A stretch of 49,864 bases of DNA from positions 1-49,864 of the forward strand of contig JAJZHP010000004.1 in NCBI GenBank assembly GCA_021804355.1. The letters run 5' to 3'. This document shows positions 37,759 through 47,458 of the stretch, piece after piece. A program made the position numbers and the translations under genes. The notes below the pieces were generated by a model, which was not told the origin of the DNA, ran no database searches, and saw only the letters and a list, made by a program, of their open reading frames with translations. The DNA comes from Pseudomonadota bacterium (GTDB lineage Bacteria > Pseudomonadota > Gammaproteobacteria > Pseudomonadales > Moraxellaceae). Numbering within the stretch: position 1 is the first letter of the stretch; each line of letters begins with the position of its first letter.

Positions 37759-40700
37759 TTAACTTGAGGGTACCTGCAGAGGGACACGTAGAATAAAACA
37801 GGTACCTTCATGTTCTATGCTGGTTACTCGTAGGCGTCCGCCTAAAATCACGGCAGCATTATGACTGATATGCAATCCTAGCCCAGAGCCACCGCGCCCT
37901 AAACGTGTGGTGAAGAAGGGTTCAAAGATATGAGACAGCTGATCTGCAGGAATTCCACGGCCATTATCACGTATGCTGATTTCAATCCATTCCTGGTCAA
38001 AAATTTCGGCGCTGATGTTTATCTGTTTGAGGCCCGTGTGCTCTTCGAAGGCATGATCCAGTGCATTGGTAATCAAATTGGTAATAATCTGTCCCATAGG
38101 GCCAGGGTAACTATCCATAACGATGGCTGGATCAATGTGCTCCTTGATCTCGATGCCCTGATTGCGTAAGCGCGGGAGCAGCAATACTAGCAAGTCGCGG
38201 AAAAGTTGATGCAGTTCAAAACGACGCCGACTGAGGATATTTTGATCCACGGCGACTTGCTTGAAACTTTGCACCAGATCAGCTGCACGCCGCAGATTGC
38301 GCACGACAATATCACAAGCCAGATTGGCCTGTTCCATAAAGTCCTCAAACTCGCGGCGTTTGATGCCTTGCTCATACCGAATTTGCAATTGCTCAAGTTG
38401 GCTGACAACCGTGGAAGCGGCTAACAGACCATTACCCAAGGGGGTATTGATTTCATGGGCAACACCTGCAACCAAATGACCCAGTGCTGATAGTTTTTCA
38501 ACCTCAACCAGTTGATCTTGAGTGGCTTCAAGTTCAATGATGCTGGCTTGCAGAGCTGAATTACTGTTTTCGAGATCCCGGGTACGCGCTAGAACGCGAT
38601 TCTCCAGATCACGGTTGAGGTCGCGGACCTCTGCTTCAATTCGACGTTGTTCGCTGATGTCTTCCGCTGTCATGATGAGGACATGGTGTTCGCCAACCGG
38701 TGTCGTAGCTGCGGTGATACGGCAAAGTACCGGGCGCCCATCCCGGGTCAGCAAAGGTACCTCCATACAGGGTATGCTGGTGCTTGCAGCCTCTATGAGC
38801 GATTGGAACTTTTCATTATCCAAAGCGCGAGACCAGATACCTGCCTCAAGAAGACTCTGTCCTGTGATGGACTCTGCAGAGCGATCCAACAAGTATTCCC
38901 AAGCTGTATTAACCGTTAAAATTTCAAATGTTACGGGGTTCAGTACAGCCATTGCTGTTGGTGAAGCATTAAAAATAGCGCGTTGCTGCTGCTCACTGCT
39001 AGCCAGGGCATCCTGGGCCAGCTTTTGCTCCGTCATGTCGAAGATAAATCCGTACCAGGCAATGTCCCCATTGGCCTCTTTTTCCGGCAGGGATGTGCCT
39101 GTACGCCATACCACACGGCCATCATGGAGTTGGAGGCGGCACTTGAATTGCCAGAGAGTCATATGAGCGGCAGAGGTATATATCGAATTAACCAGCTCGG
39201 GTAAATCATCAGGATGAGCTCGCTGAAATGCAGCGGTAGCATTATCTTTAATATCCTCAGGATGTACGCCTAACATTTCCTGCACAGCGCCTAGTGCTAT
39301 GGGAAAGCTCATGTGACCATCAGGGTGCAGGCAAAATTTATAGAGCATACCGGGTATACGTTCGGCATAGCGCAATAATTGGTCACGGTAGGCATTGCGT
39401 TCACGTTCGCGTTGCTCCCGTTCGCTGATATCTACCAAGGTCCAAATGGATAACTCACCTTCATGATCGTGCAGTATGCCAAATGACACCTCGCAGGGTA
39501 CGCTATGCCCTGATTTATGCAGTAGCCGGGTCTCAAAAAAAGCAGTTTCACCGTGAGCTTGCTGCGCATACAGATGGCCAATTTGGTCATATTCAACCTG
39601 AGATGGATAGATGATATGGGTAGACTGACCTGCCAACTCATCGGGAGAGGCATAACCTAGAATTTCGGCAAAGCGTTGATTAACTTGTACGAAATGACGG
39701 TTTCGCACCATGGTAATACCGACGCGGGTATTATTCAGCAAGTGTCTTTGTATCGCACTGACGTGTTGTTCGCGATGCATTTGGTCAAGCCGGTCGAGTC
39801 CCCGGGATAGGTTACGAGCCAGTTCTTCTAGTAAACTTTTGAGGGAGTTATCAAAAATATCTTCTTCAGAGTGTATGACGGTCAGAACTGCCCATATCTG
39901 ACCACCACGAAAGATGGGTAAGGTGGCATTGGATTTTAGCCCCCACTTATCAGCCCGATCCCTCCATAGGGCCTGTCGGGAGTTTTTCTTTAAAGATGCG
40001 CTGTAGAGGGGACAGGCCTGTCGCCAGGTGGTGCCGATATTGCCTCTTCCTTCGGGTAGGTCTTGGCGCGCGCTTACCGGGAGACCTTCAAGGTAACCGG
40101 TCACTCCAGCAGCAGCAAGAACTTCAAATTTTTGCTGGTCGCCTGGTCTGGAGATCCAAGCCAGGCTGAGGTGTCCATGTTGGATGATACAGGCACACAG
40201 TGCGTTAAGTAATTCATCTTGTGACGAGGATGAGGCCACTAAGGCATTGGCTTGCGCCAACATGCTTTGGAAATCGGCCAAACGCTGAAGGCCTCGTGAT
40301 TGATCCTGCTGATGTTTATATTGCTTGTCAAAACGCAGCAGCAGGCCAGCGATAGAGGCAATGAGGTTCAGCAGTTGTGCATCCTGTTCTGAGGGTTGAC
40401 TGCTTTTTTGTGAGGAGAGTGCAAAGGCACCCACCACAGTGTCACCATCCAGCACAGGATAAGACCAGTAAGACCAGTTGTCATGGCAACTTGACATGCA
40501 CTGCATCGAACAGCTTTTAGGAGTGAAGTCCTGATCAAGCACATGAGCATGATGACATTCGAGAACACTGCAGGGTTGACCTATAAGGGCTTGCCAGATC
40601 ATTTCGTGCAGTTTTTTTTGTTCATCAGATGCGGCAGTTGATGTGGCAAATATCTGTAACCGACCTTCCCCATCCATATTGAACAAGGCGGCTACGCGAT

Positions 40701-40848
40701 GTTCAGTGAGATTTTCAGCTTCATGGCATAAAAACACAGCTAGATTTTGCGCAGAATGGCCATCCACCAGATCGCGGAGTACGCGCGTGGAAAGTTGGAG
40801 CAGCGATTCTGCGTTGACAACTGTCATCATCATGATACATGCAAGCAT
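37759..40848 (-). CDS. Cytoplasmic multi-sensor histidine kinase (GAF-GAF-PAS-PAS-PAS-HisKA-HATPase)
   Basis: 1029 residues with no transmembrane segment. Approximate order: GAF 15-175, GAF 190-350, PAS 365-480, PAS 490-615 (PAC end WYGFIFDMTEQ), PAS 625-745, coiled coil, then the dimerisation domain with phosphoacceptor His798 (GVAHEINTPLGN) and an ATPase with NALDHAF, DNGRG from Asp961 and SGLGLHI. The first GAF carries a dense Cys/His run (C93, C98, C113, C117, C121, with H99, H100, H102, H122) that could hold a metal or redox group. The start is uncertain: ATG 40848 lacks a clear ribosome site, and ATGs at residues 6, 7 and 8 are alternatives. No response regulator is near. The signal is unknown. 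Confidence 0.9.
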   Translation of the reverse strand: MLACIMMMTVVNAESLLQLSTRVLRDLVDGHSAQNLAVFLCHEAENLTEHRVAALFNMDGEGRLQIFATSTAASDEQKKLHEMIWQALIGQPCSVLECHHAHVLDQDFTPKSCSMQCMSSCHDNWSYWSYPVLDGDTVVGAFALSSQKSSQPSEQDAQLLNLIASIAGLLLRFDKQYKHQQDQSRGLQRLADFQSMLAQANALVASSSSQDELLNALCACIIQHGHLSLAWISRPGDQQKFEVLAAAGVTGYLEGLPVSARQDLPEGRGNIGTTWRQACPLYSASLKKNSRQALWRDRADKWGLKSNATLPIFRGGQIWAVLTVIHSEEDIFDNSLKSLLEELARNLSRGLDRLDQMHREQHVSAIQRHLLNNTRVGITMVRNRHFVQVNQRFAEILGYASPDELAGQSTHIIYPSQVEYDQIGHLYAQQAHGETAFFETRLLHKSGHSVPCEVSFGILHDHEGELSIWTLVDISEREQRERERNAYRDQLLRYAERIPGMLYKFCLHPDGHMSFPIALGAVQEMLGVHPEDIKDNATAAFQRAHPDDLPELVNSIYTSAAHMTLWQFKCRLQLHDGRVVWRTGTSLPEKEANGDIAWYGFIFDMTEQKLAQDALASSEQQQRAIFNASPTAMAVLNPVTFEILTVNTAWEYLLDRSAESITGQSLLEAGIWSRALDNEKFQSLIEAASTSIPCMEVPLLTRDGRPVLCRITAATTPVGEHHVLIMTAEDISEQRRIEAEVRDLNRDLENRVLARTRDLENSNSALQASIIELEATQDQLVEVEKLSALGHLVAGVAHEINTPLGNGLLAASTVVSQLEQLQIRYEQGIKRREFEDFMEQANLACDIVVRNLRRAADLVQSFKQVAVDQNILSRRRFELHQLFRDLLVLLLPRLRNQGIEIKEHIDPAIVMDSYPGPMGQIITNLITNALDHAFEEHTGLKQINISAEIFDQEWIEISIRDNGRGIPADQLSHIFEPFFTTRLGRGGSGLGLHISHNAAVILGGRLRVTSIEHEGTCFILRVPLQVPSS

Positions 40849-46195: not shown

Positions 46196-47458
46196 ATGGA
46201 CAGCAGTATGGCTCACCCCATGGTATCGGGTGTCAGTTCAGTCGGATTTATGCCGCACGGCTTTTGTTTTTTATGGAATCCCGCCTTATTGTGGACCTTC
46301 GTACTCTCGGAAGGTGTCATTGCGTTGTCTTATTTTTCCATCCCCATCAGCCTGATATATTTTATCAGTCGTCGTAAGGACATCAGTTTTGGCGGTATAT
46401 TTCTTCTGTTTTCCTACTTTATTTTATTTTGTGGTCTGACGCATGTGATGGATGCCTGGGTGATCTGGCATCCCAACTATTGGTTGCAGGCATTGACCAA
46501 TGTTATCACCGCTGTATTTTCAGTAACGACGGCGGTATCCCTTTGGCTGGTCATTCCCAAAGCGATGAAAATTCCTAATGCTCAGGAGTTAGAAGAGGCT
46601 ATTAACCAACTGCAGGATGCTCTGATTGAACTTAAAGTGACTCAAGGCAGGCTGATCGAGTCGGAGAAGTTGTCAGCGCTAGGTGCTTTGGTGGCGGGAG
46701 TAGCCCATGAACTGAATACTCCGATGGGTAATGCTTTAACCTCTGCAACGACGTTAAAGGATGCCAATCATATGTTTGCGAAACAAAGTATTCAGGGCGT
46801 ACGTCGAGCTGACTTAGACGCGCTTCTCAGATTACATCATGAGGGTACGGATATCTTGCTGCGTAATCTGCACAAAGCTATCGCTATGATTTCAAGTTTC
46901 AAAGAATTATCGATAGATCGATTCATGGGACAACGTACAAGGTTTAGCCTGCAGCAGGTTGTTGATGATGCCTTGGTCATGTTCCAAGTTCGTTATTCGA
47001 ATCGAACATACAGCATTGATATGGATATAGAGTCGACTTTAGTGCTGGAAAGTTACCCCGCTGCTTTGGCGCGCGTGATCAGTAATCTCCTGGATTATAC
47101 CTTGGCACGGCAAAGCGTAAATGAGAGCACTCATCGTATTACCATTAAAGCTAGTCGGCAGGGTGCTGAGTGGATATATCTGATCTTTTCAGATCCCGCA
47201 TGTAATACCGATGCAGACCATGTTAAGCATTTATTTGAGCCTTTTTATACCCTCAAGCTAGGTGATCAAGAAGTGGGGTTGGGGTTGCATATCTGTTATA
47301 ACTTGGTGACGGGTCCGCTGGGAGGGTCCATACATGTTAGTTCTGAGGGCAATGAAGGCACGCATTTTCACCTGAAATTGCCACGCAGGGCGCCTGATAC
47401 GACTATTCAGCGTACTTTTCAAGCAGGAACAGGTATTCCAGATGCTGGCCTGTTTTAG
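46196..47458 (+). CDS. Histidine kinase with ethylene-receptor (ETR1)-like transmembrane copper-site domain
   Basis: 420 residues from ATG 46196. Three transmembrane helices (about 34-56, 66-90, 97-121) match plant ETR1: ALSYFSIPISLIYFI parallels the ETR1 helix with its YFSIP, and LFCGLTHVMDAW parallels LCGATHLINLW, keeping the copper ligands (here Cys79 and His83; ETR1 Cys65 and His69). ETR1 Asp25 is Glu39 here. A coiled coil (130-158) leads to the dimerisation domain with phosphoacceptor His171 (GVAHELNTPMGN). The ATPase region has VISNLLDY and EVGLGLHI, but the DNGxG block reads SDPACN, so ATP binding may be weakened. Ethylene or copper sensing is inferred, not proven. The last 56 bases overlap the antisense methyltransferase gene. 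Confidence 0.88.
   Translation: MDSSMAHPMVSGVSSVGFMPHGFCFLWNPALLWTFVLSEGVIALSYFSIPISLIYFISRRKDISFGGIFLLFSYFILFCGLTHVMDAWVIWHPNYWLQALTNVITAVFSVTTAVSLWLVIPKAMKIPNAQELEEAINQLQDALIELKVTQGRLIESEKLSALGALVAGVAHELNTPMGNALTSATTLKDANHMFAKQSIQGVRRADLDALLRLHHEGTDILLRNLHKAIAMISSFKELSIDRFMGQRTRFSLQQVVDDALVMFQVRYSNRTYSIDMDIESTLVLESYPAALARVISNLLDYTLARQSVNESTHRITIKASRQGAEWIYLIFSDPACNTDADHVKHLFEPFYTLKLGDQEVGLGLHICYNLVTGPLGGSIHVSSEGNEGTHFHLKLPRRAPDTTIQRTFQAGTGIPDAGLF

Follow-up and report, generated by a model that had tools for sequence, protein, structure and literature searches.

The gene at 46196-47458 of the window (the whole stretch of DNA that was analysed, 49,864 nucleotides) encodes a membrane protein in which an ethylene-receptor-like domain, with both copper ligands in place, is joined to a histidine kinase whose ATP-binding half is degenerate throughout its clade. 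As judged from the motifs, this kinase is probably dead, i.e. a pseudokinase. On balance we favour the explanation that an ETR1_N membrane receptor has been turned into a ligand-sensing pseudokinase, which would work through a paralogous kinase that is itself intact, or else act as a phosphatase. The features on which this is based are the following.

46196..47458, + strand: ethylene-receptor-like gene, 420 residues (open reading frame); ETR1_N membrane domain, coiled coil, DHp and degenerate CA
46253..46276, + strand: PHGFCFLW, residues 20-27, PHGxCxxW motif immediately before TM1 (common to 70 of 83 ETR1_N proteins)
46286..46573, + strand: ETR1_N domain, residues 31-126, with three transmembrane helices (PF25487, 121 bits; modelled helices)
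46310..46312, + strand: E39, at the ETR1 D25 position (Asp in 73 of 84 sampled domains)
46331..46345, + strand: Y46-P50, YFSIP, equivalent to ETR1 Y32-P36 (alignment with ETR1)
46430..46444, + strand: C79-H83, CGLTH, equivalent to the ETR1 copper ligands C65 and H69 (alignment with ETR1)
46499..46501, + strand: N102, at the ETR1 K91 position (Lys in 68 of 84 sampled domains)
46706..46720, + strand: H171-T175, phosphoacceptor His and intact ExxT (kinase alignment)
47096..47098, + strand: Y301, replacing the N-box Asn (kinase alignment)
47192..47206, + strand: D333-N337, DPACN, broken G1 box, canonically DxGxG (kinase alignment)
47276..47287, + strand: G361-L364, GLGL, G2 box kept within the genus (kinase alignment)
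37759..40848, - strand: paralogous GAF/PAS histidine kinase, 1029 residues, CA motifs intact (motif alignment); comparator and possible partner

The PF25487 (ETR1_N) profile matched residues 31-126 with an E-value of 2.5e-35 and 121 bits, for a curated cut-off of 27. This E-value rules out a chance match, and a search of 14 control genomes with the same profile gave zero matches. The initial annotation, which had read this open reading frame as an ETR1-like domain of three N-terminal helices joined directly to a histidine kinase without a GAF domain, is borne out on these points. Three helices are present in both AlphaFold2 models, one of the whole protein (mean pLDDT 61) and one of the membrane domain (pLDDT 68), at low to moderate confidence and from input alignments of four and three sequences. 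No GAF or PAS domain was found between ETR1_N and the kinase in a Pfam domain search; only a coiled coil is predicted there, and such a direct join without GAF is common among relatives. HATPase_c matches residues 289-398 with 59 bits, and the HisKA score is slightly under its cut-off. Promoter and terminator scans gave nothing above about chance level.

Alignment with ETR1 places D25, Y32, I35, P36, I62, C65 and H69 at E39, Y46, I49, P50, I76, C79 and H83. The copper ligands C79 and H83 are retained, together with Y46, I49 and P50. The YFSIP and Cys/His patterns and the replacement of Asp25 by Glu39 had thus been read correctly from the sequence; the change of K91 to N102 had been missed, as had the broken ATP-binding motifs of the kinase. 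In both models C79 and H83 lie one turn apart on helix 2, with E39 on helix 1 and N102 on helix 3. The earlier criterion that C79 and H83 face each other in one bundle is a weak test: along a single helix, positions spaced by four invariably share a face. Built from few-sequence alignments, the models uphold the topology only. A sequence search found no solved structure of an ETR1_N domain. The work on AzoEtr1 gives the positioning of H69 and a polar bond with K91 as predicted roles of ETR1 D25, and states that ethylene binding is lost when ETR1 C65 or D25 is mutated (PMC11819568). In a 2025 paper the copper-binding site is made up of Asp25, Cys65 and His69 (PMC12643061), and in simulations the contact of copper with D25 is infrequent (PMC6586836). 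The PHGxCxxW motif before TM1 is common to most ETR1_N proteins and mostly absent where the copper Cys/His pair is broken: allowing GHGxC, it occurs with 70 of 75 intact copper sites versus 1 of 8 broken ones. Its His and Cys could assist copper loading.

ETR1_N domains are known in cyanobacteria and proteobacteria, and finding one in a proteobacterium is not new, since AzoEtr1 of Azospirillum brasilense binds ethylene (PMC11819568). The domain is also not as puzzling in a non-photosynthetic proteobacterium as the initial annotation had held, given this demonstrated receptor and matches above the curated cut-off in 36 of the 294 genomes sampled from the order; the corresponding counts are 12 of 369 for the class and 28 of 398 for the phylum. 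Within the window's own family it was found in only 7 of 349 genomes, belonging to three genera, and a sequence search of genome contigs gave matches only in a congener and a Nostoc protein. Two short frames (L027 and L031, about 155-163 residues from the domain start) are seemingly ETR1_N without an output domain. Positions 25 and 91 were compared in AtETR1 and 83 locus hits, 84 domains in all: 67 have D/K, six D without K, one K without D, and ten neither. Every member from the window's family, seven in number, is among these ten (two with E/N, four with E/L and one with N/D), and the seven form a single clade in the tree (support 99/98). A Fisher test of the co-loss on nearly the same table gave p about 7e-7, a value that is descriptive only because the sequences are kin. 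At sequence level, the coupled change agrees with the published D25-K91 contact. L089, which lies outside the clade, also has N/D at these positions and a PAS-GGDEF output.

In an alignment of the protein with seven kinases of the same genome, H171, E172, T175, the F-box and G2 are kept, the N-box Asn is replaced by Y301, and G1 reads DPACN (333-337). The seven paralogs aligned are intact, and ten related kinases of this genome have all motifs present. The loss extends to the whole clade: in the five full-length members the N-box Asn position holds Y, Y, F, R and F, and the G1 box of the other four reads DHAYS, LPRQQ, DNGAP and APSVC (L070 and L071, incomplete at contig ends, were excluded from this tally). 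The phosphoacceptor His, ExxT and the F-box Phe pair are retained in all five. Part of G2, its first Gly, is lost in two relatives; two of the three lineages still have the box, and some weak binding of nucleotide may therefore persist. HATPase_c scores follow the same trend, with 90 bits in the intact neighbour kinase versus 59, 52, 45, 29 and 24 in the five clade members. Since five species share the losses, these are inherited within the clade, and sequencing error as their source was rejected on the same ground. The earlier description as a bacterial kinase is doubtful, since the ATP site is degenerate across the clade. We found no report of a bacterial ETR1_N pseudokinase among the open-access papers searched, which is not proof of novelty.

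Between the two congeners, dN is 0.066 for the membrane domain, 0.094 for DHp and 0.162 for CA, and the CA of the intact neighbour kinase (37759-40848) gives 0.177 for the same pair, in which synonymous sites are saturated or nearly so. The degenerate CA changes at no higher rate than its intact counterpart, which disfavours obvious decay. As far as two congeners can tell, the gene is under purifying selection, and the motif losses are conserved across three genera.

The closest paralog is G000:C20:1135-2745 (L110), with a kinase module 42% identical to that of the 46196-47458 protein. The linker and helix 1 are 63% identical versus 38% for CA, which makes the dimerisation region the better-kept part, and helix 1 of this paralog is joint most similar among those aligned. 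Orthologs of this paralog were found in each of the seven genomes that carry the gene and in one further congener, whereas the remaining 91 genomes sampled from the family gave none. This co-occurrence is weak evidence, since both genes mark the same three genera and shared ancestry may be the cause. Related kinases of the HELNTP/HDLNTP type, with 31-42% identity, are found on G000 contigs C20, C120, C90, C169, C171 and C28. No response regulator adjoins the 46196-47458 gene within the neighbourhoods read, and none was seen beside the C20 or C120 kinase when both neighbourhoods were read. No conserved partner gene emerged from synteny, since the block is shared by the two congeners and not by the other genera, and no copper-homeostasis gene was recognised adjoining the gene.

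In the favoured explanation, the three-helix domain would bind Cu(I) and a small ligand, with ethylene, some other small olefin or gas and Cu(I) itself as candidates; a conformational change would then run through the coiled coil to DHp. Action through a partner kinase is proposed because normal ATP binding is probably impossible: the protein would form a heterodimer with an intact paralogous kinase or be phosphorylated in trans by such a kinase, for which G000:C20:1135-2745 is the best candidate. There is a precedent in the ChrS pseudokinase, which works with the paralogous HrrS through heterodimers (PMC9491836). Alternatively, the protein could be a ligand-controlled phosphatase acting on the partner kinase's response regulator, a role that is conceivable because ExxT is intact. 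Taken separately, output through a partner kinase is a tentative proposal, somewhat short of an even chance, and the phosphatase role is unlikely.

An ordinary ethylene-receptor histidine kinase, in which ethylene on Cu(I) governs autophosphorylation and the phosphotransfer to a response regulator, would be like AzoEtr1 and SynEtr1, both demonstrated receptors, and it agrees with the strong ETR1_N match and the conserved C, H, Y, I and P residues. We regard it as improbable, however, given that the N-box Asn and the G1 glycines are gone clade-wide, that Glu replaces D25, which in ETR1 cannot be mutated without loss of ethylene binding, and that K91, the predicted partner of D25, is lost. Ethylene sensing, which the initial annotation had put forward, keeps the support of the retained copper ligands and is less likely than was implied, with D25 and K91 both substituted; as the sequence reads, ethylene binding by this protein is doubtful. 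The remodelled 25/91 pair could rather mean that Cu(I) itself or a small molecule other than ethylene is sensed, with a pseudokinase output and hence compatible with the favoured explanation. The E/N, E/L or N/D pairs throughout a clade that keeps the Cys and His ligands, and the same N/D pair in a GGDEF-type protein outside it, argue for such a change, whereas the lack of a recognised copper-homeostasis gene next to the gene and the chance that Glu still places the His as Asp does speak against it; we hold it for possible, if somewhat unlikely.

Two further explanations concern the kinase half. The protein could be an active kinase with a non-canonical nucleotide site, as HATPase_c still scores 59 bits and G2 is kept in the genus. 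The losses include, however, the magnesium-coordinating Asn and both G1 glycines, and two relatives score only 24-29 bits for HATPase_c, so that activity in spite of these motifs is hardly to be expected. The gene could also be decaying, its function being lost without a conserved role, in keeping with its presence in only 7 of 349 family genomes and a G+C content a little below that of the neighbouring genes. Against this, the frame is full-length in five species, all of which show losses of the same classes, and dN between congeners is low (rounded, 0.07 for the membrane domain, 0.09 for DHp and 0.16 for CA) and similar to that of intact neighbours, which makes decay very improbable. The ligand-sensing pseudokinase with a partner kinase or a phosphatase role is the explanation that we favour.

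Kinase damage is also found in other bacterial ETR1_N proteins. In family f24, 7 of 12 ETR1_N kinases (L005, L007, L009, L010, L011, L017 and L019) are without the phosphoacceptor His, which is replaced by Arg, Tyr or Glu, the ATP site being intact. As controls we used 60 other kinases from four of those f24 genomes, hand-picked from HATPase_c hits, a choice that biases towards an intact CA and should not bias the His. The His is missing in 2 of the 58 controls with a readable site (Fisher, p about 2e-5, uncorrected for relatedness). In L106 (family f7) Asn stands in place of the phosphoacceptor His, with N-box and G1 intact. L091 keeps D/K at positions 25 and 91, and its C-terminal part has no recognisable His or ATP-site motifs; both kinase halves seem to be lost. 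From these motif readings one kinase half appears to have been lost several times among bacterial ETR1_N proteins, in counts that are not corrected for relatedness. A broader and frankly speculative proposal is that bacterial ethylene-receptor-type sensors repeatedly become kinase-dead controllers of partner kinases, mirroring plants, and that in the present clade the copper-site neighbourhood was remodelled simultaneously for a different ligand.

The ethylene receptors of plants contain a GAF domain and act through CTR1, and those of subfamily 2 have degenerate histidine kinase domains. The 46196-47458 protein shares ETR1_N with Arabidopsis ETR1 and a degenerate kinase with subfamily 2; its loss sits within a bacterial clade and is presumably independent of that in plants. 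It has long been asked why these plant receptors lost their histidine kinase activity. The bacterial clade, which has the same sensor domain and has inherited a probably dead kinase, would open this question to tests in simple bacteria, and family f24, where the phosphoacceptor His became three different residues, would add a second case. The naturally occurring pairs at positions 25 and 91 (E/N, E/L and N/D) offer ready variants for studying the roles of both residues towards copper and ethylene. Like AzoEtr1, the protein is a proteobacterial ETR1_N protein with the copper Cys and His and a histidine kinase module (PMC11819568). AzoEtr1 has Asp35 and Lys98 where ETR1 has D25 and K91, contains a PAS domain and is encoded next to a response regulator, whereas the present protein has Glu and Asn, neither a PAS domain nor such a neighbour, and a broken ATP site. 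With ChrS of Corynebacterium glutamicum, which heterodimerises with a paralogous kinase, it shares an inactivated CA; ChrS, however, is a heme sensor inactivated by a lab-evolved frameshift, while the motif loss here has been inherited by a natural clade whose sensor is of another type (PMC9491836). Finally, G000:C20:1135-2745 has the same HELNTPxGN helix as the 46196-47458 protein and differs from it in its N-terminal sensor and its intact CA motifs.
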